A program made the translations under genes and the position numbers. A stretch of DNA of 64,000 nucleotides. Source: Candidatus Zhuqueibacterota bacterium (GTDB taxonomy: Bacteria > BS750m-G25). Location: the NCBI GenBank assembly GCA_016783505.1, contig JADHWK010000002.1:1-64000 (forward strand). The letters are read 5' to 3'. The notes under the pieces were generated by a model that made no database searches, was not told where the DNA came from, and saw only the letters and a program-made list of their open reading frames with translations. Every line of letters starts with the position of its first letter. The first letter of the stretch is position 1. Of the stretch, positions 112 through 34,745 are shown piece after piece.

Positions 112-403
112 TGCAACTTTAGTGGTCAATTACCAAAAAGATCAATACTAACACTGTATTTGAAGCTGTCTTTAATGCTTCAAGGTGCAACCTGGAAGCA
201 ACAGAATTCGAGTTTATGTTTATATAAACCCCGAGGTTTCGGGGTAACTCCGCTTGGAGTGAATTGTAGACCGATACTACACCCTACGGGTGTATTGCTA
301 ATACTTGATACCTCAAATTACGGCGTATCATTAACCCCCCTGTTACAAACAGTGTGAGAGCGCTTCTTGGAAGTCAAAAGGATAATTTTGCACCAAAAAC
401 CAA
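112..403. other. Intergenic region after the transposase
   Basis: No convincing gene. A perfect 6-bp stem (CCCCGA / TCGGGG, GGTT loop) lies at 229-244 but is not followed by a T-run, so it is more likely a dispersed hairpin than a terminator. A short plus-strand open frame at 160-357 has no recognisable features. Confidence 0.4.
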
Positions 404-1759
404 TTAGAACTCTGTAGTGCTGGAGAATGTAAATTGACTTATTTTCATGGCGGGCACCACGAACCCGCCCCCGAAGAAGGCAGAGGTAAAAACTCGCTCC
501 CTGGAGATTAATTCTACCCTGCCCAAGGCTTTTAGAACACTTTCAGTAAACCGAAGATTTTTCAGTGGGTAGGCGATCTCCCCGTGTTTAATCCAGAAGG
601 TCCCGTCCCGGGTCATCCCCGTCAGCACCATTTTTTTTGGGTCAATGACATTGGTGTAATGAAAATGAGTCACCAAAATACCTTTATCAGTAGAAGCGAT
701 CATTTCTTCAAGGGAGGAAGTCCCTGCCGAGAGGACCAGATTCAGGGGGATGGGGCCCATGGTATTAGGCTGGGGCAGGGCGTGGCCGGTGGAATCCATC
801 CCCGCCTTCTGGCCCGTGATCCGGTCGTGGACGACTCCCCTGGCCGTCCCTTTTTCCACCAGCACCACTGGCTGGCGGGGCAGACCCTCAAAATCAAAGG
901 CCAATCCGGGGTTCAGGGGATTGTAGGCGTCATCCACGATGGTGATCTTCTCGTCAAAGAGTTTCTCCCCAAATCGGTCTGAAAAGCAGCTCCGGCCCTC
1001 AACAAAGTTTAGCCCGCCGAAGGCTTCCCAGGCCATAAAGAGGAGAAATTCGGCCACCGCCGCCGGTTCCAAAACCACGGTATAGTCCCCAGGTTTTCTG
1101 TCCCTGGGACCTTGACTCTTTTCCGCCTTCTCAAGGGCCGTTTTACTTAATCGAGGGACGTCAATCTGGTTTACGTCTTTGTCCGTTCCCTCCGCCCAAC
1201 CCGACCCGTCCCCGGCGGTCACCGTGGCGCTGAAGGTGGCACCTGTCAGCTTTTGGAAGGCAAAAACGCCCTTTGAATTAGCCAGCCCCACTGCCTCTTC
1301 CCCATTAGAAAAGATACCAGCCGCCTGGAATTTTTTCCGTCGGCACCCCTCGGCAAGAAAGGCGATGCAGACAGCCCTCTCCTTGGGCCCCATAAGGGCT
1401 GTTTCGCCCACATGGGTTTGGACCGGTCGGTAGCTCTGTGAACCGATCAACGGTAAAAGTTCAAGATCCCGCTTTTGACAACGAGCCATCCTCTGGGCCG
1501 CGTCTACGATGGCTTTCAGGGAGTCGTCGTCGAATTTATTGGTTGTTGCCCGGCCTGCCCTTTTCCCTGTGATAGCCCGAATCGTAACGACACTGTTTTT
1601 CTGGGCCACGTTCTGGGTAATCACATTGTTGGAAAACCGGGTTATGGCCCCATCGGTTGCCGATAGGATGACCTCGGTTTCATCGGCATTTGAAAAGCCG
1701 AAAATTCGCTCGGCGATATGCTCAAATGTTTCTTCAGAAATCATAGTCGAAGTTTTCAA
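404..1759 (-). CDS. TldD/PmbA-family protein, TldE-like subunit
   Basis: About 451 residues, the usual length for TldD/PmbA proteins. The N-terminal substrate domain (SATDGAITRFSNNVI) is followed by the C-terminal domain with EAFGGLNFVEGRS, an FDFEG segment, and GTARGVVHDRITGQKAG. The HExxxH zinc motif of catalytic TldD is absent, so this is the non-metal TldE/PmbA type, which works with TldD to cleave unfolded or modified peptides in the cytoplasm. No TldD partner is in the window; it could lie beyond the left edge or elsewhere. The longest frame starts with TTG at 1759; an ATG at 1744 is equally plausible, and neither has a strong ribosome site. Confidence 0.85.
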   Translation of the reverse strand: MKTSTMISEETFEHIAERIFGFSNADETEVILSATDGAITRFSNNVITQNVAQKNSVVTIRAITGKRAGRATTNKFDDDSLKAIVDAAQRMARCQKRDLELLPLIGSQSYRPVQTHVGETALMGPKERAVCIAFLAEGCRRKKFQAAGIFSNGEEAVGLANSKGVFAFQKLTGATFSATVTAGDGSGWAEGTDKDVNQIDVPRLSKTALEKAEKSQGPRDRKPGDYTVVLEPAAVAEFLLFMAWEAFGGLNFVEGRSCFSDRFGEKLFDEKITIVDDAYNPLNPGLAFDFEGLPRQPVVLVEKGTARGVVHDRITGQKAGMDSTGHALPQPNTMGPIPLNLVLSAGTSSLEEMIASTDKGILVTHFHYTNVIDPKKMVLTGMTRDGTFWIKHGEIAYPLKNLRFTESVLKALGRVELISRERVFTSAFFGGGFVVPAMKISQFTFSSTTEF

Positions 1760-1883
1760 CTTTACTTAATATAGATTTGCTTACCCAAAAGCCAATATAA
1801 CCCACCTGCCAAGCAACCTCATAACCCTCTTACAAGTTATAAGAAGTGATATTCTTTGAATTTACTATTCTGCCTGACATCAA

Positions 1884-1959
1884 GAGATTCTTCCCCCGAA
1901 ACTTCGGGGTCAGAATGACAATATTGGGAAGTGTCATTCTTAACGCAGTGAAGAATCTC
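1884..1959. repeat. Dispersed GAATCTC-type inverted repeat, copy 1
   Basis: The arms GAGATTCTTC and GAAGAATCTC bracket internal TCAGAATGACA and TGTCATTCT arms, giving a nested hairpin. It contains the AACGCAGTGAAGAATCTC block that recurs at 3891-3946. A partial third copy (GAGATTCTTCAGAATGATA) sits at about 1986-2004. The rest of 1760-2061 shows no gene. Confidence 0.7.
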
Positions 1960-2057
1960 ATTAGTTTCTTGATATTTTTCCAAATGAGATTCTTCAGAAT
2001 GATAGGTGAGTATCATTCGAAAGAGTATCGGCTTAGCCATATGAAGTTGACCACAAA

Positions 2058-2078
2058 TCGGTCAGGCGCTCGGCTGAT
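2058..2078. repeat. REP-like palindrome at the 3' end of the symporter gene
   Basis: TCGGTCAGG followed by CGCTCGGCTGA, within a longer CCACAAATC / GATTTGTGG stem (2051-2083). The same imperfect palindrome occurs at 7576, 18213, 52904, 54120 and 55376. It supplies the last codons and stop of the symporter gene. It may serve as its transcription end, but no T-run follows. Confidence 0.55.
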
Positions 2079-3504
2079 TTGTGGGCTGCTTCCAGCGGTT
2101 TTTTATCAAACTGACCCCGATGATGGCGAAAAGCGAAAGGAAAAACCCGGGGATTAACTCATAGAGGCTATTTTTCAAAACGGGAACATTATACCAGACC
2201 AAGACGGTGAGGGTGCCGGTGATCATCCCCGCCATAACCCCTTCCTTGGTGACTTTCTTCCACCATAGAGAAAGTAGGAGAGCCGGTCCGAAGCTGGCCC
2301 CCAGCCCGGCCCAGGCGTACAGCACCAACCAGTATACCAGCGATTCGGCCATCAGGGCTAAGATAAAGGCCACTATCCCGATGATGACCGTTGCCACTCT
2401 GCTGATGAGGACCAGCCTTTCCTGGGCGGCTCCCTTATTTATCATCTGCCGGTAGATGTCCTCGGAGATGGCCGAGGTGGTCACCAACAACTGGGAATCA
2501 GCGGTGGACATCATGGCGGCGATGGCCCCGGCAATAAGAATCCCCGCTATTCCCGAAGGAAGGAGATAGTTGGCCATGTAGGGCATAATCTGCTCCTGGT
2601 CCTGCACCACCTGTCCTAAAAGACCCAACCCAACGATCCCGATAAACACCGCTCCCCAGAAGGCCAGGATGGCCCAGCCCACGGCGATCAGGGTGCCCTG
2701 CCTTAAGCGTTGGGGATCCCGGATGGCCATGAACCGGGTCACCAGATGGGGCTGGCCCATATAACCCAATCCAATTCCCAATCCACCGATGACCGTCGCC
2801 AGCATCGGCCAGCCGCTCTGGCCCCCACCCACCAGAAGTAGGTCAGGATTGAGGGAGTTTAACGACTGGGCCAGTTTTCCCACCCCCCCCATTTCGATGA
2901 GACCGACGACGGGCAACAGCACTAATGTAAACACCATGAGCGACCCCTGGACTAAGTCGGTCCAAGCCACGGCAAAGAACCCCCCCATGATGGTATAAAA
3001 CAGGATAATACAGGCGCCGATCACCATCCCCCAGAACTGGCTAATACCAAAGGTGGCGTTTAAAACCTTCCCCGCCCCTAAGAACTGAGCCGCTACATAG
3101 AGGGCAAAGAAAAAGACAATGATGACAGTGGAAAGAATGCGCAAGGTGTGGGAGGAATCTTTAAACCGGGCCTCAAAGAAGTCGGGCAGCGTCAATGCGT
3201 TCAATCTGGCGCTCTGTAGCCTCAGCCGCTTGGCGATGAAGGTCCACGAGAAGAAGATGCCGAAGGTGCATCCCACCGCCGGCCAGATGGCCGAGAACCC
3301 CGAGGCCCAGGCCAGACCCGGCAGCCCGATCAAGAGCCAGGCACTCTCTCCCGAAGCCCGCTCGGAGAAAGCGACCACCCAATGGCCCAGCCTTCTCCCC
3401 GCCAGGATAAAATCCGCCAGGGTCCGGGTGAGCCTGAAGGTGAGGAAGCCGACCACTAAAACCAGGATTAAATACACGATAAAGCCGATGAGGGTCGCAT
3501 CCAT
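2062..3504 (-). CDS. putP: Sodium:solute symporter, PutP-like (sodium/proline type)
   Basis: 480 residues with about 13 hydrophobic segments, the normal size of the SSF family. The SERASGESAWLLIGLPG stretch near residues 48-64 is the signature of PutP-type sodium/proline symporters in the inner membrane. Later segments (FAVAWTDLVQGSLM, AGAIAAMMSTADSQLLV) also match the family. It is the last gene of a three-gene minus-strand operon: its ATG overlaps the TAA of the preceding small membrane protein (TAATG), which implies translational coupling. Proline specificity is inferred from family resemblance. Confidence 0.85.
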   Translation of the reverse strand: MDATLIGFIVYLILVLVVGFLTFRLTRTLADFILAGRRLGHWVVAFSERASGESAWLLIGLPGLAWASGFSAIWPAVGCTFGIFFSWTFIAKRLRLQSARLNALTLPDFFEARFKDSSHTLRILSTVIIVFFFALYVAAQFLGAGKVLNATFGISQFWGMVIGACIILFYTIMGGFFAVAWTDLVQGSLMVFTLVLLPVVGLIEMGGVGKLAQSLNSLNPDLLLVGGGQSGWPMLATVIGGLGIGLGYMGQPHLVTRFMAIRDPQRLRQGTLIAVGWAILAFWGAVFIGIVGLGLLGQVVQDQEQIMPYMANYLLPSGIAGILIAGAIAAMMSTADSQLLVTTSAISEDIYRQMINKGAAQERLVLISRVATVIIGIVAFILALMAESLVYWLVLYAWAGLGASFGPALLLSLWWKKVTKEGVMAGMITGTLTVLVWYNVPVLKNSLYELIPGFFLSLFAIIGVSLIKNRWKQPTNQPSA

Positions 3505-3608
3505 TATTGCTCCACCCTGGAATTATCGGTAAAAATATATATGCCGATAGTGAGAACCAACAATACCACAGTCGGCACCACCACCCAGAAAATGGTCCAA
3601 AAAGGCAT
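3504..3608 (-). CDS. Symporter small accessory protein (34 aa)
   Basis: A 34-residue frame starting MPFWTIFWVVVPT, essentially one transmembrane helix followed by a short polar tail ending RVEQ. Its stop overlaps the start of the PutP-like symporter by one base. This matches the tiny single-helix proteins found directly upstream of many SSF symporters and annotated as symporter small accessory proteins; the function is thought to be support of the transporter but is not established. It is too short for routine gene callers. Confidence 0.75.
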   Translation of the reverse strand: MPFWTIFWVVVPTVVLLVLTIGIYIFTDNSRVEQ

Positions 3609-3619
3609 GGCTCACCCTT

Positions 3620-3820
3620 CTATTTATACGTCTGAATAAACCTTGAAAACGACCTATCAAACGTCCTTTCCACATCATCTGGGAAAAAGCAGGCCGGCAG
3701 TTCTCTGGAGCGGAGATGATACTGGACGCATAAGCAGCAATTCCCCTTCTTATCACAACCGGGGTAAGAACAGTTGCAGAAATCCAGATTCTTATTTAGG
3801 TATTCACATTCTACCGCCAT
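3620..3820 (-). CDS. DUF6485 family cysteine-rich protein
   Basis: 66 residues with a metal-site-like cysteine pattern: CEYLNKNLDFCNCSYPGC, then KKGNCCLCVQYH, then LPACFFP and a C-terminal TFDRSFSRFIQTY. This matches the DUF6485 family, whose seven or so conserved cysteines suggest zinc or iron-sulfur binding. It is the first gene of an operon with the symporter small subunit and the PutP-like symporter (11-bp gap). The function is unknown; the linkage suggests a role in symporter assembly or regulation. Confidence 0.8.
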   Translation of the reverse strand: MAVECEYLNKNLDFCNCSYPGCDKKGNCCLCVQYHLRSRELPACFFPDDVERTFDRSFSRFIQTYK

Positions 3821-3890
3821 ATCCCTCCTCCTTTCGATTTCAAAACGTCACTTCCCTATACTCTGCAAACGTAAATCTATGAGCGACAGG

Positions 3891-3946
3891 GATTCTTCAG
3901 AATGACAATATCGTGAGATGTCATTCTGAACGCAGTGAAGAATCTC
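3891..3946. repeat. Dispersed GAATCTC-type inverted repeat, copy 2
   Basis: GATTCTTCAGAATGACA pairs with TGTCATTCTGAA...GAAGAATC, the same element as at 1884-1959 in a shorter form. It sits between convergent-like gene ends in the gap 3821-3982. Confidence 0.7.
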
Positions 3947-3982
3947 TTTTCTCAAACCTCCACCCTCTGAATCGTAAAGTAT

Positions 3983-4816
3983 TCAAAACCACAGCCGGGT
4001 TCCCAGCATTAGGCTATTCAGACTATGATGGGGCGACCTAAGGGTTCGGAACCCCAGCCTGAATCCAGTTCTCCCATACAGGATTCCCACCCCCCCTTCC
4101 AGTTCCAAGAGCAACTTTTCGTTCAGAGAGGCAAATTGAACGCTCGCATCAATCATCCACGGGGGAACCGGGAAAACCTCCCCCGAAAAACCAAAGTCGG
4201 CCCCCACAAAATTCTCTTCCCCAGACAGCGTCTTGAATCCCATCTGGACATCAATCAAGACCGGTTCCCGGATCAGAAGGCTGTAGAGGAAATGACCCGA
4301 CAAAATTTGCATGCGGTCTTTATCCCCGTTCAACTGTTCAATGTACTGGTCAAAAGTGAAATCCACCCCGAACCGGGAGAGGAATTTGGCTTTACCGGCA
4401 AGAGAATATCCCATCAGGGAACGGGAAAGATACTGGTAATCGCCCCCAAATGTGAAGAAATAAGATTTATCCCGATAAAAGTCTAGTCGCGTGGCGAAAT
4501 TGTAACCGCCATCATAAGGATACGATAAGTAGTACCAACCCCTGTTGGAAGAATCCAGGGCAGATATTATTCCATAAAAGTTCTGTACCATAAAATCAGC
4601 GATTAAATCGGAAATCCAACCGTTATCTTCCTCCTCTTCATCCTCTTCACTCTTCTTTTTTCCCTTTTCCTTATCCTTAAAGTCTTTCTGAAATTCCCCC
4701 AACTTGCCCTTTTTTTCTTTTTCCTTTTTTGACTCATCCTCCTCCTGTGCCCACCCTACCCAAAGAGGAAACCAAAGAAATAGAAGGATTATGGTCAATA
4801 TTTTTGAGAAAGACAT
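3983..4816 (-). CDS. Exported protein with predicted C-terminal beta-barrel
   Basis: 277 residues. Residues 1-23 form a signal peptide (hydrophobic core, cleavage near VGWAQ). Residues 24-66 are a highly charged Lys/Glu linker. The remainder is rich in alternating aromatic and polar residues (GWYYLSYPYDGGYNFATRL, YFFTFGGDYQYL) and ends in TRLWF, with the terminal aromatic typical of outer-membrane barrels inserted by BamA. I do not recognise a named family. It stands alone, about 50 bp downstream of nadA on the same strand. Confidence 0.6.
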   Translation of the reverse strand: MSFSKILTIILLFLWFPLWVGWAQEEDESKKEKEKKGKLGEFQKDFKDKEKGKKKSEEDEEEEDNGWISDLIADFMVQNFYGIISALDSSNRGWYYLSYPYDGGYNFATRLDFYRDKSYFFTFGGDYQYLSRSLMGYSLAGKAKFLSRFGVDFTFDQYIEQLNGDKDRMQILSGHFLYSLLIREPVLIDVQMGFKTLSGEENFVGADFGFSGEVFPVPPWMIDASVQFASLNEKLLLELEGGVGILYGRTGFRLGFRTLRSPHHSLNSLMLGTRLWF

Positions 4817-9714: not shown

Positions 9715-11367
9715 TTATTCAAACAATTCCTCCCACCGGTAGCTCGTCCATTCACACAAAGCCGCCTCGCGAATGTCGTATACCAGGTTTTCGTAAGCCA
9801 GATCAATAGTCATCTGATTCGGTCGGAAAATAATACTGTGTTCGGTGGTTCGGTTGCCGGAGACTTGAATAAGTTCGATAATCTCTGGAGTCCCAATACT
9901 TTTGCCATAAACCTTAAACGCAACCAACCGATCGGCCAGGTCCGCATACCTACGGCAGAATCGCACCGCATGGTTTGGAGAAACCCTATATTTCAGGTAA
10001 GTATTGGTACAGACAAGGTTGTAGGAGCAGGTAGGGCGCGCCTCATCCGGATAGCGCATGACACCGCCCTCCATATCTACTTCATAGATGGCGGCCGGGA
10101 CCTTCTGTCCAACGTATGGCGAAACAATGAACAAAATCTCCCCGCTGTTAAATGGCCCCCCTTTGGGTCCACGAAATGTCATCATGGCCTTCTCGGCCTC
10201 ACTAACGGTGTTTTTAGCACCTACTGTCTCCAGCACATCCCGCATAATTAGGGTGCCTGGCCGATAACCCGCGATCGCAGGATCCGATTTGCCGTTGCCG
10301 CTATGATCAAAAATCCCTACACCTTCCTCGTTCATCCCGGAGTAGGTACCTATAAAACCCGGCCACATAACTGAAACCCATTTTTTCTTCTTGGGTGAAG
10401 CTGGTTCAACGGCAAATATCAACACGGAAATGATGGTAGTTTTTCTCAAATCGATCTCGCCGTCCATATCTCGACCAATAATCAGTCCGTCTTTGAGCTC
10501 GTCATTTTCGGTGGCTTTTCCCCAGGCAGAGACACTGGAACATGATAAATCCTCCCCCCACCATTCTCCATAGGCATTAAGGGCATAAAGGTCACCCCGA
10601 ATCACTTCCCGACCCAATGCATCAATAAACATATTGGAACCGGAATCGCGCATCCCCTTTAGCATGGCATCCAGCTCTTCATTATCTTCTTCAGTAAAGA
10701 CGGACCTAGATTCGACAAAGGGAATGACGCTTTTTTCATAATAGGAAGCTGAACGAGCGACAAACTCCACATTGAAGAATTCGATCATGTCCCGAATTTG
10801 AGGGCCAACTAAAAATCCTTGGGCATAACCCCTCTCGGCTGGTTTTCCCCAGAGATGCAGCACCTTTTTATCCTTGATAGTCCTCAGGCTGCCGTGTTCG
10901 ATTCTTTTATCCTCTGTGGGAAAGGGTGTGGGACGTTTTAGGATGATGTTTATATTTTGTACTTGACTATCTTCGTTTATAGTAACCTCATCCAGCGAGC
11001 CGTTGTCAGCTGTATACCAACCCGTAGGTTCGGGAATATCATAATCTACTTCTCCGTTGCCGTTTATATCCATCCAGGCCCAAAGGGTGTAATTGGAGTC
11101 GGGTAAATCGGAAATGGTATACGGGCCTAGGCTGTGGGTGCGTACAGATGAGAAAGTGATAAGAGGCTCGTGCTCCCAGATGTAGCGATGTCTACGCAAA
11201 CCTTTAGGTACCGGATAGGCTCTCACATAAATGGCACCTCTTTGGCGACCTTTGTAGGTTACTTTGCCTGCAATGGAGCCAGCTAAGCTTGAGTTTACCC
11301 CGGTAACCGCTAGGGTGAATACCAGCAAAATTGCGGTAAATGTCAAATATCGCAAAAGGGTTCTCAT
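9715..11367 (-). CDS. Exported C45-type Ntn hydrolase with N-terminal regulatory-like domain (copy 2)
   Basis: About 550 residues from the ATG at 11367, which has AGGAG eight bases upstream and begins a signal peptide ending around NSSLAGS; a longer frame to 11391 adds eight residues. The layout is the same as the neighbouring paralogues: beta-sandwich domain (GKVTYKGRQRGAIYVRAYP ... WAWMDINGNGEVDY), then the Ntn domain with nucleophile Cys in LSCSSVSAWG, GLIIGRDMDGEIDLRKTT and TEHSIIFRPNQMTIDLAYE. It is clearly closest to copy 1. It lacks the lipobox cysteine of copy 1, so it is probably periplasmic or secreted. Confidence 0.75.
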   Translation of the reverse strand: MRTLLRYLTFTAILLVFTLAVTGVNSSLAGSIAGKVTYKGRQRGAIYVRAYPVPKGLRRHRYIWEHEPLITFSSVRTHSLGPYTISDLPDSNYTLWAWMDINGNGEVDYDIPEPTGWYTADNGSLDEVTINEDSQVQNINIILKRPTPFPTEDKRIEHGSLRTIKDKKVLHLWGKPAERGYAQGFLVGPQIRDMIEFFNVEFVARSASYYEKSVIPFVESRSVFTEEDNEELDAMLKGMRDSGSNMFIDALGREVIRGDLYALNAYGEWWGEDLSCSSVSAWGKATENDELKDGLIIGRDMDGEIDLRKTTIISVLIFAVEPASPKKKKWVSVMWPGFIGTYSGMNEEGVGIFDHSGNGKSDPAIAGYRPGTLIMRDVLETVGAKNTVSEAEKAMMTFRGPKGGPFNSGEILFIVSPYVGQKVPAAIYEVDMEGGVMRYPDEARPTCSYNLVCTNTYLKYRVSPNHAVRFCRRYADLADRLVAFKVYGKSIGTPEIIELIQVSGNRTTEHSIIFRPNQMTIDLAYENLVYDIREAALCEWTSYRWEELFE

Positions 11368-28188: not shown

Positions 28189-28626
28189 TTGATTCCAGTT
28201 CTTTTAACTTGTAACATGCTTACACACAAAATTAAAATGAATAAACAAACTTCAGCAAATGACATCCCCTCTGTAAACGAAACTTTTACCTTTATAATCC
28301 CTTATCATACCCTTCAAGTTACCCCTCAAGTCACCGAGCAAGTCACCGAGCAAGTCACCGAACAAGTCACCGAACAAGTCACCGGACAAGTCACCGGACA
28401 AGTCGAAATGATGGATAGAATTGCTTCCACGTTAAAACACTGTGAAACACCGAGGTCTCTAAGAGAGATCATGACGTTTTTAAAGCTGAAACATAGAGAG
28501 ACCTTTATGGAAAAAGTGCTACATCCACTCTTAGAGAAAGGCTACTTAAGAAGGACAATCCCAGATAAACCGAGAAGTAGATTTCAGAGGTATGTAGCAG
28601 TAAAGGAAAAGAAAAATGAGCAATAA
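28189..28626 (+). CDS. Winged-helix fragment with QVTE tandem repeat (truncated ATP-binding/Fic-type protein)
   Basis: Up to 145 residues; an in-frame ATG at 28237 (MNKQTSAND) is an alternative start. A Gln-Val-Thr-Glu repeat encoded by 12-bp units (28315-28404) precedes a winged-helix region (RSLREIMTFLKLKHRETF ... VLHPLLEKGYLRRTIPDKP). This arrangement is the C-terminal end of longer AlbA_2/divergent-AAA or Fic-like proteins, whose N-terminal catalytic domains are missing here. Its last codons overlap the start of the HsdS fragment, as in type I restriction operons. It is probably a remnant, possibly still translated. Confidence 0.5.
   Translation: MIPVLLTCNMLTHKIKMNKQTSANDIPSVNETFTFIIPYHTLQVTPQVTEQVTEQVTEQVTEQVTGQVTGQVEMMDRIASTLKHCETPRSLREIMTFLKLKHRETFMEKVLHPLLEKGYLRRTIPDKPRSRFQRYVAVKEKKNEQ
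28315..28404 (+). repeat. 12-bp tandem repeat (QVTE units)
   Basis: Seven consecutive units of CAAGTCACCGAR-like sequence plus a half unit; the units drift in pairs (GAG GAG, GAA GAA, GGA GGA). This suggests stepwise duplication. The frame is kept throughout. Confidence 0.85.
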
Positions 28627-28744
28627 TCCAAAACCCGGCTACAAACTCACCGAACTAGGTGAAATACCAGAAGAGTGGCAAGTGGTAAGGTTTGGGGAGG
28701 TCATTTTGGTAAAACTCAGGTATAAAGGAGTCAATAATAGATAA
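28616..28744 (+). pseudogene. HsdS N-terminal fragment 1
   Basis: 42 residues beginning MSNNPKPGYKLTELGEIPEE and continuing with WQVVRFGEV. This is the conserved start of type I restriction specificity subunits, truncated within the first target-recognition domain. Its ATG overlaps the end of the preceding winged-helix frame by 11 bases. Confidence 0.75.
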
Positions 28745-28751
28745 TCAAGCA

Positions 28752-29258
28752 ATGGTTCCAATAGAAATAATTGAGAAGCGAATTTATTTGCTCCGTGGAA
28801 AGAAGGTTATGATTGATTCGCATTTGGCAGAATTATATGGAGTAGAAACAAAACAATTAAAAAGACAAGTTAGAAGAAATGTAGAAAGATTTCCTGATGA
28901 TTTCATGTTTGAGTTAACACAAGAAGAATATCAGGATTTTTTAAGGCGCCAATTTGGCACCTTAAAGAGAGGCAAATATTCAAAATATATTCCATACGCA
29001 TTCACAGAACAGGGTATAGCTATGCTTTCCAGTGTGCTGAATAGCAAACGAGCTATACAGGTTAATATCCAGGTTATGCGAGCTTTTGTAAAACTCCGTG
29101 AGATGCTTACTACACACAAAGAACTTGCTCGCAAATTAGAACAATTGGAAAAGAAATATGATGCACAGTTCAAAATAGTATTTGATGCAATCCACCAGCT
29201 TATGGCACCACCCAAAAAGCCACACCGAAAGATTGGGTTTCATAGAGAGGGGAAATAA
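28752..29258 (+). CDS. ORF6N domain-containing protein
   Basis: 168 residues. The N-terminal ORF6N domain is clear: IYLLRGKKVMIDSHLAELYG, then KQLKRQVRRNVERFPDDFMF and YAFTEQGIAMLSSVL; the C terminus is a coiled coil (LARKLEQLEKKYDAQFKIVF). These DNA-binding proteins are common in phages and inside type I restriction operons, where their role is unclear. It lies between two HsdS fragments and its TAA overlaps the ATG of the second (TAATG), reproducing the normal operon order. It appears intact. Confidence 0.9.
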   Translation: MVPIEIIEKRIYLLRGKKVMIDSHLAELYGVETKQLKRQVRRNVERFPDDFMFELTQEEYQDFLRRQFGTLKRGKYSKYIPYAFTEQGIAMLSSVLNSKRAIQVNIQVMRAFVKLREMLTTHKELARKLEQLEKKYDAQFKIVFDAIHQLMAPPKKPHRKIGFHREGK

Positions 29259-29326
29259 TGAATAAATACAATAAGTTTAAACAAACAAAAATCGGCGAAA
29301 TACCTGAGGAGTGGAAGAATGTTTGA
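29258..29326 (+). pseudogene. HsdS N-terminal fragment 2
   Basis: 22 residues: MNKYNKFKQTKIGEIPEEW followed by KNV and a stop. It repeats the HsdS start motif (ET/K-IGEIPEEW) of fragment 1. The start overlaps the stop of the ORF6N gene. Confidence 0.7.
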
Positions 29327-29824: not shown

Positions 29825-29890
29825 AACATGCCAATAAGGGATGTTATTCAAAATGCTTCGCTTATACATAGTTATCTGACATTGCCCGCC
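29821..29890 (+). repeat. attC-like site 3 (boundary candidate)
   Basis: Begins GTGAAACATGCC, the block also found inside site 1 (24328 region), and ends with ATAGTTATCTGACATTG, comparable to GTTAGCTGAAATAAG of site 2. It marks the change from restriction-locus debris to the AT-rich DUF3883 gene. I see no strong stem. Confidence 0.25.
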
Positions 29891-29901: not shown

Positions 29902-30063
29902 ATGTCAATGAAAACTGATAAAGAAATATCTCCAAATGTTAGCATCCACCACCGAATTAAAGCTACTAGAAGCGTGGGTATGTGCCACTGGGAGGTACAA
30001 AACAAAAGAACATATAATAAGAGAAATGTTTTATCAAATCTGGAATACTCGGGGGTGAGATGA
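29902..30063 (+). CDS. Possible small ORF coupled to the DUF3883 gene
   Basis: A 53-residue frame starting MSMKTDKEISPNVSI and ending NLEYSGVR. Its TGA overlaps the ATG of the following 1504-residue gene, an arrangement typical of coupled genes, and GGAAAG lies just upstream. It has no recognised domain and its composition is unremarkable, so it could equally be chance. Confidence 0.25.
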   Translation: MSMKTDKEISPNVSIHHRIKATRSVGMCHWEVQNKRTYNKRNVLSNLEYSGVR

Positions 30064-33000
30064 TGGCCATTAAAATCAAATGGGACCACGAATTTATTAA
30101 ACAAGTTGCAGCTCAAAATGAGAAATATAAAGATGATCCACTAGTAGAAAAATTAACGGATTTTATTGCTAAGAGTGTCTACTCATCCCCATCTCATTTT
30201 GCATTAGAAATGATCCAAAATGCTGACGACGAAAAATCTACTGAGATAAAATTTTATTTTGAAAAGAATAATAAAATCATAGTTACTAATAATGGTAAAA
30301 AATTTTCAAAAGATGATGTCAGGACAATTTGTTACGCAGGGCATAGCCTAAAGAAAAACAAAAAGGGATTTTTCGGAATAGGATTTAAATCGGTTAAAAG
30401 GATAACAGATACTCCTCAAATTATATCTAGCAATTACAATTTCGTTATCCATAAATATTATCACCCAGAACCATGCAAAGAGATCCCAGAAGATATAACA
30501 TTCAACCCTCAAAAAGGTGCAATTTTTATTTTGCCTTTGAAATCTAAAAAAGAATATAACAACATTTTCAAAAATTTTATGGAAGAAACCAATGAGAATC
30601 TATTATTGTTTCTTGATTATATTAAGAAAATTTATATTATCGACAGGAGGAAAAAAGAAGAAAAGACTCATGTTTTGTCTTATGACCGTAAATATGGAAT
30701 TTTAGAAAATTCATATACGGGTAATAAATCGTTTTGGAAAGTATTTAAGAAGATAATCTATGTACCCAAACGTATTCGTAAACCAATGGGAAAAGAAAGG
30801 GTAAGAAAAACTGAGATGGCTTTAGCATTTCCAGCAGATATAAAGGATACCCCAGATCCCCAAAAACTATTTTGTTATCTGCCGACAGAGCGTTTCACCG
30901 GTTACCCCTTTATAGTTCAGGGCGACTTTTTACCCATATTAGGCAGGAGCAACATAGACGAAGAAGATCCTTGGAATAAACACCTATTAAACCAATTGTC
31001 AGAATTAATTGCAGACGCCTTTGAAAATCTAAGAAACTATCCCAATTTTAGATTGCGAATACTTTCATTTCTTCCACTAAAGGAAGAATGTCATGATGAG
31101 TTATTTATTAAGTATATAGACGCTATCTATACGGAATTAAAGAACAGAGAGATTGCATTCACACGAGATATATGTTTTAAAAAACCGACAGATTCTATCG
31201 ATCTTTCCCGCGATCTATGGGAGCTCTTTAGCAATGATGATTTACAAGAGATTTACAAAAATGAAAAATTTGTGATATCGGACGGGTATAATGACCATGA
31301 AAGGAAGATTTTATCTCTGTTGGGCATGGAAACGTTCGGATTAGATAATATAATCTCATTCTTCAAAAATAATAAGGGTATAAGGAAGAAAGTTGTGGAT
31401 CCAAATTGGTTTGTTTCTATTTATGCATACATAAATGACGATTTTGACGACTATGAGAAAGATGATTTGAGGAATGTTCCATTTCTCTTATCTGAAACAG
31501 AGGAGCTTATTTACTCAGAAGATCCAAAAAAAATGGATAAACCAAGGCTAATTGCCAATCAGTATATGAACAAGGAAACCTCATTTTTTTCTGAATTGTT
31601 CAATAAAGATAAACTAATATTCCTCCATAAGAGATTTAGAATATCTAGAAATCAAAAGAAGAATAAAAATTACGATCGCCGACTCGATAAGGTTCATCAG
31701 TTATTTGAATTTCTTGGTGTAATTAGAATGGTTGAGGCGCATCATATTATTACACAACTCATATTACCAAAATTTCAGGAAACGCGAAACGGGAAACGTC
31801 TAGGTCATAAAAAAGCCATTTTATTCACAAATTTTATTCTTGAAAATTTGTCATATTACCGTAAAATATACGGAAGCCGTACAAAAACTGATGATTGGGA
31901 AATTTTCTCAGACATTAGGTCAAAAATCCTAGTACTTGCAGAAAAGAGGGATTCTACTAGTAAGAAAAGATATGTCTTTTTATCCCCAACGGAGGTTTAT
32001 AGACGTGGTGAGGGAAAGAAACTACTCCCTGAAAAATATTTTAGGGGTTTGACTGAGGTACCATTTATCTCCAGAAAATATTTTTCCAAAAAGATCTTAG
32101 GTAGTTTTACTAGCATACCGATTACGCAAGCAAGTAAAAGACGTAAGATATATTCTTGGGATGCTTTCTTCCATTTGATGGGGGGTTGGGAAATCCCAAG
32201 AGTAATACCAATTAGTCGGAGTTATTCTCGATACGACTCAAGACTAAAAGATGATTTCCCAAATGTCGATTGGGACTATGAATATGATTCTACAACAGGA
32301 TACGAAATTAAAGATTGGATAATGCCAGAGTTAACTGATACCATTCGAAAGTACATCAACACAAAGGTTAAAGTTGAAAAAGACCGATTGAAACATCGGT
32401 TAGTTTATATTAGAGAAAGCGTTGCAAAAAATTGGAAAAAATACAAAGATTATAAAAAAGCAGAAGCCTCATATTTTTATTATTCAGATGGGGATATCAA
32501 AGTAGGTTCAACTTTTTATCAACAGCTAAAAAAACCTTGGTTTCCAAGATCTACCGACGGAAAATTAATAATACCTTCAAAAAATTACAAAGATACAATT
32601 GATAATAGATATTTAGCGCCCAAAGGCTCTGATTTTATAGATATACCCCCAGGGTCGAAAGAATTTTATAAGGAAATAGGGGTAATTGAAGATCCTGATC
32701 CAAAGGATGTGCTTGAAAGATTGCAGAAGATAAAAGCACATTGGGATAAAGTTAACAAGATACCCCTAGATAGCTTTAAGAAAATGGAGGCTTATTATAA
32801 GTATTTAGTTGATAAAAGTAAAACAAATCCTGATTTAAAAGATGCAATCGAAAGTATATTTTCAAAAAAGTATGTAATATTTCTTCCTACAAAAGTCCGT
32901 GGTAAAACGAAAATATGGTGGCATAGAGACCAAGTATTTGCAATAGAAACTTTGGATCATTCCCTTACACCATTTTTTCAATCGTTATTTCAGGAAGGAG

Positions 33001-34574
33001 CATACAGCATAGAACTAGAAGAGACATTTATTTCCCTAGGCGTTAGAATTAGTCCGAGCTTTAGAGACTACAAAGAAACCTTTCAACACATTATGAAGGA
33101 GTGGGGAAAAGCCTCAACAAACAAAAGATTGGAACTTAAGGGAAAAATTAGTTATGCTTTAGAAGGGCTAAGTACATTGATCGAAAGCGAATCGGTAGAC
33201 GATGATGAAAAAATTAGGAAACTATTCGATGAAAATATTTTCTTAACCGATCAGAATGAATTTTTAACACCCAATGAAATATATTTGAAAGACGATTACG
33301 AAATCTATGAGGTATTTCAAGATTGTATTCCCACATTGTGGTACAACGGTGAAATAGCATCTATTTCATCATCATTGATAAGGATAGGTTTCAACTCGTT
33401 AAAAGATTATAAAGACAAAAGAAAAGCAAGGTTTATTGATAAAGAATTTATTCATAAAGATGATCTTCCAAAAATGATAGAATTTTGTGAAGTTATTGAG
33501 GCCTTCATAGAAAATAGATTCAGTACATTATATGATAAGCAAAGGGAGAATATCGCTAGATCTAAAGATTTACAAATTTATACAGCAAAAAATATAAAAG
33601 TTACTTACTTCTTAGAGGGCAAAAAGCGAATAAAAAATAATGTGCCCATTTACTTATCGAAAAATGAACTTGTGATATCTACCGCCGAAAACGATCCATG
33701 GTTAGAAGTAATCAGAGATGACTTTTCAAAATGTTTGTCCTCAATTTTTGGAGATTTAGGTCCTCATTTGAGACCTTTGATCAATGATTTGCATCAAAAC
33801 CCAGAAGACATTAACGTTGTCATTCAAAAGTGGGGGTTAGAAAGGGGACGTGTATTTAAAAAATATGTTGAGGAGGAAAGCCAAGTAATCAAGATGCCTT
33901 TGGCTCAAGCGAAAAAAGAACTTGAGACCTTTGGAGAAGAGGTCGAAGAAGAACCAATAACCCAAGTAGTTGATATCACAACCACACCAACCCAAACACC
34001 ACAACCCAAGAGCAAGGATGAGGAAGTTTTCCCGTTAGAAACAATCAACGGTTTTATTATAAAAAACATTAAAACAGGCGAAGTGACTACATTACCACTC
34101 AAAAGAAGAAAGATAAGAAAAAGTAAATTGCCAAAAAAGAAGGGAATTTCTAAAACTTATACCCCATTTTCATCTCAAATGACGGAGGATATAGCTGTAG
34201 AAATCGTAAAAAAGTTTGAAGAATCTCAAGATCGAGTGGATATAAAAGATGTGAGAGATGATGAAGATGAGGGTTGTGACTTAATTTCATCTGGGAGGGG
34301 TGGGAATCGTCTGATAGAAATAAAAGCTTCCAAGGGTAAAAGACCGCAAATTAAACTTCGGCCATCTCAATATAAAAGAGCAAAACAAGATAAAGAGAAG
34401 TATTACATTTACAAAGTAGAAAACATAGAGAAAGGAAAATTACCACATATCGAAATAGTTCAGAATCCGATAGAGAATCCAAAGATTAGAATTGTTCATT
34501 TAGGAGAAGTTAAAATAGAAGGATGGGAAAACTCGGATAAAATCTCAATCGATGTAAGGATTGAAGAAAATTAG
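30060..34574 (+). CDS. Giant GHKL ATPase / DUF3883 protein (sacsin-like, candidate defence protein)
   Basis: 1504 residues. The N-terminal domain is an Hsp90/sacsin-type GHKL ATPase: N-box ALEMIQNADD (Glu50, Asn54, Asp56), a VTNNGKKFS strand, and a glycine lid GFFGIGFKSVKRI (103-115). The long middle (about 250-1300) has no domain I recognise and is rich in Lys, Tyr, Asp and Phe. A Pro/Thr linker near 1310-1330 precedes a C-terminal DUF3883 domain (about 1374-1480) with a PD-(D/E)XK-like pattern: Asp1407 in GCDLISS, Glu1420 and Lys1422 in LIEIKAS. ATPase plus nuclease-like ends, AT-rich composition and restriction-locus debris upstream suggest a defence role. Start ATGATG with GGGGGTGAG upstream; the second ATG is possible. 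Confidence 0.8.
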   Translation: MMAIKIKWDHEFIKQVAAQNEKYKDDPLVEKLTDFIAKSVYSSPSHFALEMIQNADDEKSTEIKFYFEKNNKIIVTNNGKKFSKDDVRTICYAGHSLKKNKKGFFGIGFKSVKRITDTPQIISSNYNFVIHKYYHPEPCKEIPEDITFNPQKGAIFILPLKSKKEYNNIFKNFMEETNENLLLFLDYIKKIYIIDRRKKEEKTHVLSYDRKYGILENSYTGNKSFWKVFKKIIYVPKRIRKPMGKERVRKTEMALAFPADIKDTPDPQKLFCYLPTERFTGYPFIVQGDFLPILGRSNIDEEDPWNKHLLNQLSELIADAFENLRNYPNFRLRILSFLPLKEECHDELFIKYIDAIYTELKNREIAFTRDICFKKPTDSIDLSRDLWELFSNDDLQEIYKNEKFVISDGYNDHERKILSLLGMETFGLDNIISFFKNNKGIRKKVVDPNWFVSIYAYINDDFDDYEKDDLRNVPFLLSETEELIYSEDPKKMDKPRLIANQYMNKETSFFSELFNKDKLIFLHKRFRISRNQKKNKNYDRRLDKVHQLFEFLGVIRMVEAHHIITQLILPKFQETRNGKRLGHKKAILFTNFILENLSYYRKIYGSRTKTDDWEIFSDIRSKILVLAEKRDSTSKKRYVFLSPTEVYRRGEGKKLLPEKYFRGLTEVPFISRKYFSKKILGSFTSIPITQASKRRKIYSWDAFFHLMGGWEIPRVIPISRSYSRYDSRLKDDFPNVDWDYEYDSTTGYEIKDWIMPELTDTIRKYINTKVKVEKDRLKHRLVYIRESVAKNWKKYKDYKKAEASYFYYSDGDIKVGSTFYQQLKKPWFPRSTDGKLIIPSKNYKDTIDNRYLAPKGSDFIDIPPGSKEFYKEIGVIEDPDPKDVLERLQKIKAHWDKVNKIPLDSFKKMEAYYKYLVDKSKTNPDLKDAIESIFSKKYVIFLPTKVRGKTKIWWHRDQVFAIETLDHSLTPFFQSLFQEGAYSIELEETFISLGVRISPSFRDYKETFQHIMKEWGKASTNKRLELKGKISYALEGLSTLIESESVDDDEKIRKLFDENIFLTDQNEFLTPNEIYLKDDYEIYEVFQDCIPTLWYNGEIASISSSLIRIGFNSLKDYKDKRKARFIDKEFIHKDDLPKMIEFCEVIEAFIENRFSTLYDKQRENIARSKDLQIYTAKNIKVTYFLEGKKRIKNNVPIYLSKNELVISTAENDPWLEVIRDDFSKCLSSIFGDLGPHLRPLINDLHQNPEDINVVIQKWGLERGRVFKKYVEEESQVIKMPLAQAKKELETFGEEVEEEPITQVVDITTTPTQTPQPKSKDEEVFPLETINGFIIKNIKTGEVTTLPLKRRKIRKSKLPKKKGISKTYTPFSSQMTEDIAVEIVKKFEESQDRVDIKDVRDDEDEGCDLISSGRGGNRLIEIKASKGKRPQIKLRPSQYKRAKQDKEKYYIYKVENIEKGKLPHIEIVQNPIENPKIRIVHLGEVKIEGWENSDKISIDVRIEEN

Positions 34575-34609: not shown

Positions 34610-34745
34610 CACCTCCCACATATAACCGAGAGGCGGGCAACATCAGATAACACAGCATATACACTTCGGGCTTACGCCTTTGCCCTTTGGGACATTTTGC
34701 TATCGCAAAACGTCGTATATGCTGGAAACGTCATACGCCATGCAG
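34610..34745 (+). repeat. attC-like stem-loop site 4
   Basis: GATAACACAGCATATAC and GTATATGCTGGAAACGTCAT form a perfect 10-bp stem (CAGCATATAC / GTATATGCTG, about 34653-34732) around a GC-rich loop with TTCGGGCTTACGCC and GCCCTTTGGGAC. The ends ATAAC and GTCAT are nearly complementary. This is the clearest of the four sites and closes the AT-rich DUF3883 segment. Confidence 0.4.

Follow-up and report, generated by a model that had tools for sequence, protein, structure and literature searches.

A divergent member of the Tiamat family, and a probable ATP-gated nuclease, from an uncultured bacterial lineage

Introduction

What is the role of a 1504-residue protein that begins with a sacsin-type ATPase, ends with a nuclease-like domain, and is encoded by a solitary gene in Candidatus Zhuqueibacterota? 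The gene lies on the + strand at positions 30060..34574 of a stretch of DNA of 64,000 nucleotides, referred to here as the window. An initial annotation, made from the sequence, read the product as a GHKL ATPase joined to DUF3883 and as a candidate for a role in defense, and did not recognize its architecture as that of a named system. The domain reading is borne out by profile matches and by the predicted fold, and both a full-length match to TmtA and the defense neighbors of relatives speak for the proposed role. On the architecture the annotation was wrong.

Tiamat (TmtA) is a named single-gene system in PADLOC and DefenseFinder, and it was reportedly described as a defense system by Millman et al. 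in 2022. It is recurrent in Pseudomonas defense hotspots. Its mechanism is given as unknown in a 2026 review (PMC12926258). The value of the present finding lies in a domain map, consisting of a GHKL domain, an Hsp90 middle domain, a repeat body and an exchangeable nuclease, and in the exchange of effectors, which together make the mechanism of Tiamat testable through residues E50, R296, D1407, E1420 and K1422. The map also ties immunity in prokaryotes to the ATPases of the sacsin/Hsp90 line. We put at roughly 0.6 the probability that this is a single-gene anti-phage protein of the Tiamat family, working as a switch of the Hsp90 kind that is driven by ATP and bears a nuclease at its end.

Membership in the Tiamat Family

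The open reading frame is intact, with an ATG start preceded by a ribosome-binding-like GGGGTG, 1504 codons and no internal stop. The PADLOC model for TmtA (PDLC03972) matches residues 11-1472 of 1504 over positions 5-1286 of 1302 in the model, with E=3.8e-93. The initial annotation had proposed an HMM search with each third of the protein. When it was split into three parts, residues 1-430 (E=7e-61), 431-1290 (3.8e-19) and 1291-1504 (3e-16) matched PADLOC TmtA models separately, so the match is not carried by the ATPase alone, and the end-to-end and part-wise matches rule out an unnamed architecture. The GHKL N-terminus with intact motifs, which membership in Tiamat requires, is present, and the order of sacsin-type ATPase, long body and NOV_C tail is that of Tiamat. 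As expected of a single-gene system, no partner gene adjoins the gene within the window; upstream there is non-coding debris over about 0.8 kb, and downstream an unrelated C1-like peptidase gene. Judged by its sequence, the protein is a divergent member of the named Tiamat (TmtA) family. It differs from other members in its divergence, being about 26% identical to the next full-length relative (L060), and in its origin in an uncultured candidate lineage.

Short matches to the TmtA profile are found in many genomes and in control genomes such as that of E. coli; since most of them span no more than a single GHKL or DUF3883 domain, they were left out of the TmtA count. Plant-derived "Tiamat" calls have been reported in one metagenome study, and Tiamat profiles appear also to catch related eukaryotic (sacsin/NO VEIN-like) proteins. 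An origin as a phage-encoded gene was rejected, there being no match among 50,697 phage records and no PHROG match.

A single-sequence pattern scan of the genome contigs found no relatives; they were recovered from these contigs with an N-terminal alignment. Their C-termini were aligned domain by domain; a global MAFFT alignment of the mixed homologs misaligned them.

The ATPase Clamp and the Repeat Body

The sacsin/GHKL (Hsp90 N-type) ATP-binding region occupies residues 30-130 (30147..30449, + strand), where Pfam PF25794 (SACS) matches with E=1.3e-13 and PF02518 stays below threshold. The NCBIfam model of the sacsin N-terminal domain (NF047352) matches with E=1.9e-19, and a sequence search of the PDB returned sacsin crystal structures at E=8e-4 (about 1e-3). 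The N-box, E50-x3-N54-x2-D57 (30207..30230, +), is invariant in 13/13 and 25/25 homologs. Glu50 and Asn54 had been named correctly at the outset; the Asp had been placed at residue 56, and alignment of homologs shows that the invariant one is D57. The ATP lid GFFGIGFKS, residues 103-111 (30366..30392, +), was correctly recognized, and in the homolog alignments G103, G106 and G108 of its G-x-x-G-x-G motif, together with F109 and K110, are invariant.

The roughly 1000 residues between the two ends had been said to hold no recognizable domain. This does not stand for residues ~225-426 (30732..31337, +), whose model resembles an Hsp90 middle domain. In VIA-align, Hsp90-family middle domains aligned in a single register take up nearly all of the top 50 rows for this region, with MORC3 rows also among the matches; the best Z of 6.8 is weak to modest, yet the rows agree. 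The model of residues 225-1295 has a pLDDT of 83.7 and a pTM of 0.54, because of which the packing of its domains is uncertain. R296 and N306, both within the middle-domain-like region, are invariant in homologs, and R296 may by analogy be the counterpart of the ATP-contacting arginine of the Hsp90 middle domain. Homology and the model indicate that the GHKL and middle domains would form an ATPase clamp. A GHKL N domain followed by an Hsp90-type middle domain is shared with the sacsin, Hsp90 and MORC ATPases, from which the present protein differs in carrying a nuclease-like tail; the HEPN or DnaJ part that enters into this comparison was not seen in it. In the structure comparison of the 225-1295 model, no match to the Hsp90 C-terminal dimerization domain was listed beyond residue ~426.

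The body that follows, residues ~430-1290 (31347..33929, +), is modeled as diverged alpha/beta-hairpin units. Windows within residues 430-1160 are mutually alike in profile comparison, with a probability of up to 87% compared to at most 0.8% in 55 shuffled-column control comparisons, and the body is therefore taken to be a diverged repeat array. No confident PDB fold was found for it, importin-like Foldseek rows having a TM of about 0.1; this lack of a match does not show that the fold is new. A Pro/Thr/Lys-rich linker, evident from the sequence and from the low pLDDT of the last part of the body model, occupies residues ~1291-1370 (33930..34169, +).

The C-terminal Nuclease-like Domain

Residues 1376-1459 (34185..34436, +) match PF13020 (NOV_C, that is DUF3883) with E=7.8e-9. 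An AlphaFold2 model of this domain reaches a pLDDT of 83; it was built on 41 window and locus sequences. Foldseek and VIA-align place PD-(D/E)XK nucleases at the top, namely Hjc resolvases, the SPARDA nuclease, NhoI, DpnI, I-Ssp6803I and RecU, with Z up to 10.6; tRNA-splicing endonucleases appear in a few of the lower rows. The conserved columns of the domain are exactly the putative metal ligand D1407 (34278..34280, +), present in 42 of 43 homologs, and the E1420-x-K1422 of the PD-(D/E)XK motif (34317..34325, +), in which both residues are kept in 43/43. The helix-1 Glu found in some PD-(D/E)XK enzymes is not uniform among NOV_C homologs. In Hjc the corresponding residues are D42, E55 and K57, and their D-x12-E-x-K spacing equals that found here. 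The PD-(D/E)XK-like spacing noted initially is thus matched by near-complete conservation, and in the predicted structure, a check that had been proposed along with it, the residues fit a nuclease site. The domain is predicted to have a PD-(D/E)XK fold with a D/E/K motif, by which it would cut DNA. Fold and motif are shared with DUF3883 helicases, Hjc and the SPARDA nuclease; the DUF3883 domain of the TmtA-like protein is fused to a GHKL ATPase, not to an SNF2 helicase, and has no Argonaute as partner. The proposal of nuclease activity for DUF3883 is not new, since a 2013 paper (PMC3710099) had already described it as a novel REase domain.

Exchange of C-terminal Modules

About 125 homologs are free of truncation at the edge of a contig. 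Of these, 46 have a NOV_C tail (the query included), 8 a NucS-type tail and 28 another or no recognized tail; 44 fall in a Zn/HNH class, which rests mainly on an iterated profile built here and not every member of which is shown to be a nuclease. A separate Pfam tally (n=117) gave 44 NOV_C, 6 NucS_C and 4 HNH_2. At least 12 changes of module occur on a tree built from the N-terminal region. Sister proteins with different tails include L066 (NOV_C) and L068 (Zn/HNH), and L099 (NucS) and L120 (Zn/HNH), while L040 (NucS-type) adjoins L075 and L081 (NOV_C). Giant ATPase relatives of 2450-2985 aa with other tails (L046, L084, L108, L114 and L133) form one well-supported group of the tree.

The best match to the protein in the window is L059, a 1277-aa protein from a MAG of candidate division CSSED10-310, with 58% identity over residues 1-1268. 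Its gene (380-4213) stops just short of the linker and DUF3883, with the end of the contig about 80 bases further on. The missing nuclease domain could represent a real loss, degradation or the edge of the MAG.

The exchange of tails, seen at the level of sequence, is what one would expect if a sensor or motor were conserved and its effectors could be interchanged. The initial annotation had proposed that the ATPase detects a phage product and that the nuclease acts. The effector half of this proposal is made more plausible by the exchange of the C-terminal module; the sensor half is one that we infer. On a broader view, to which we give even odds, TmtA-type proteins are a modular class with an Hsp90-like N and M domain clamp, a repeat body as sensor and repeatedly swapped nuclease tails, Tiamat being an ATP-gated nuclease whose specificity would reside in the body. 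No description of such a sensor-effector account was found in the literature searched.

Proposed Mechanism

The divergent Tiamat protein is probably an ATP-gated nuclease, and its action may be pictured as follows. The GHKL N domain and the Hsp90-type middle domain would form the clamp, as homology and the model indicate. The body of ~860 residues would bind a protein or nucleic-acid structure made by the phage, or else would keep the protein inactive. Ligand and ATP would then close or dimerize the clamp, in keeping with the behavior of Hsp90, MutL and MORC. Closure would unite or free the C-terminal PD-(D/E)XK domain, and DNA of the phage, and perhaps of the host, would be cut by way of D1407, E1420 and K1422, of which fold and motif are predicted. 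The tail would be a swappable effector, replaced in relatives by NucS-type or Zn/HNH-type domains.

A protein of the same family could instead use a tail that binds DNA, or could end without cutting, and an ATP-driven clamp or chaperone would then block phage replication in the manner of MORC or Wadjet. The Hsp90/MORC-type N and M domains, with MORC3 rows among the structural matches, are in keeping with this, as are the closest relative, L059, which lacks the nuclease domain, and the helicase-like or unassigned tails of some homologs. Retention of D/E/K in 42-43 of 43 NOV_C copies and the replacement of NOV_C by other nuclease domains favor catalysis, and we consider a clamp that does not cut unlikely.

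The Locus in the Window

The GC content is 32-35% over the TmtA-like gene and, with the 23-35 kb stretch left aside, mostly 40-53% in the rest of the window, in agreement with the initial description of the gene as AT-rich. Upstream debris on the + strand (28616..29326), recognized from its sequence and from profile matches, consists of two HsdS-start-like peptides around an ORF6N gene. The short peptides, YKLTELGEIPEEWQVVRFGE and FKQTKIGEIPEEW, look like HsdS starts, and an HMM search with both gave no match; the restriction-locus debris described initially is thus upheld by appearance and not by profile. The ORF6N gene (28752-29258, within the + strand debris) matches ORF6N with E=4e-33 and the PADLOC candidate PDC-S05 with E=5.7e-59. 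Similar genes are found on Bacteroidales plasmids. Of a further gene, only a C-terminal Fic-like_C fragment is present, at 28189-28626, and it contains a series of QVTEQVT repeats. Apart from the debris and the ORF6N candidate, no other complete defense system lies beside the TmtA-like gene in the window.

The "stem-loop sites" said to bound the gene correspond to two features. The gene is enclosed by the arms of a 20-bp imperfect inverted repeat (29871..29890 and 34632..34651, both +), which are 90% complementary; 0.02 chance matches are expected per window, and the genome has only two copies. Downstream is an attC-like palindrome, AGCATATAC...GTATATGCT (34654..34723), with perfect 9-bp arms. 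This copy looks degenerate. The only other copy found, on contig C82 at 10385-10433 (L179, L183), ends in GTTAGGC, which fits the integron attC core. A C-terminal integron-integrase-like fragment lies about 1.5 kb from that site (C82 11931-12194; L193 5902-6321); its match to TIGR02249, 85 bits across 85 positions, falls short of the curated cut-off. The TmtA-like locus gave no match in an Rfam scan. The gene may have arrived by an integron-like or other mobile route, a lead rather than a result.

In such a setting the gene could be decaying within a degraded mobile island, its reading frame intact and its function or expression gone. The restriction-locus debris upstream, the inverted repeats with the degenerate palindrome, and a sister copy (L059) without a tail are what decay might leave. 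The absence of a stop in 1504 codons, the retention of all ATPase and nuclease motifs and the GGGGTG ahead of the ATG speak for a working gene, and decay appears improbable.

Distribution and Neighborhoods of Relatives

Full-length relatives of ~1390-1620 aa, with the same domain order and roughly 20-27% identity, are found in Methanomassiliicoccales, cyanobacteria, Leptospiraceae and Caldiserica, among other lineages. The distribution is patchy (2/59 sampled genomes, its own included). Relatives are carried by five plasmids, on one of which the relative directly precedes QatABCD, and by 24 viral-contig loci.

Genes beside the long relatives matched 213 PADLOC families at E<=1e-10. Genes beside 13 TmtA-family loci matched 82, compared to 18 for an equal number of control genes from distant contig stretches of the same 13 genomes; only the direction of these differences is usable, because PADLOC counts are of redundant profiles and not of genes. 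Relatives adjoin known defense genes more often than control regions do. The neighbors of long relatives include UvrD/PD-(D/E)XK, NERD and SNF2 helicases, as well as unrelated genes. A sacsin-like chaperone of protein quality control, with a housekeeping or stress role, would account for the sacsin-type N domain and the Hsp90 middle domain, but is made very improbable by this wealth of defense genes, the patchy distribution, the copies on plasmids and viral contigs, and the nuclease tail together with the full TmtA match.

Much of the 82-family set is supplied by six SNF2 helicases (matching HmaA, DrmD and others), which in the loci looked at mostly adjoin short relatives of ~1000 aa. These short relatives with their helicases may be a separate, Hma-like system in the PADLOC sense. 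Such loci share with the TmtA-like gene a homologous N-terminal ATPase region, and their helicase neighbors match PADLOC HmaA; their ~1000-aa proteins mostly have Zn/HNH tails and a helicase partner, whereas the TmtA-like protein is long and solitary. Hma calls for helicase and methylase partners. No helicase gene lies beside the TmtA-like gene, and the only gene of the methylase kind is a small methyltransferase-like one ~5 kb upstream. At two other loci (L071 6312-9668 and L072 6227-9868) the gene immediately ahead of one for a long, Zn/HNH-tailed TmtA-like protein encodes a Swt1-like HEPN fused to an SNF2 helicase, a pair that is possibly a two-gene toxin-helicase variant.
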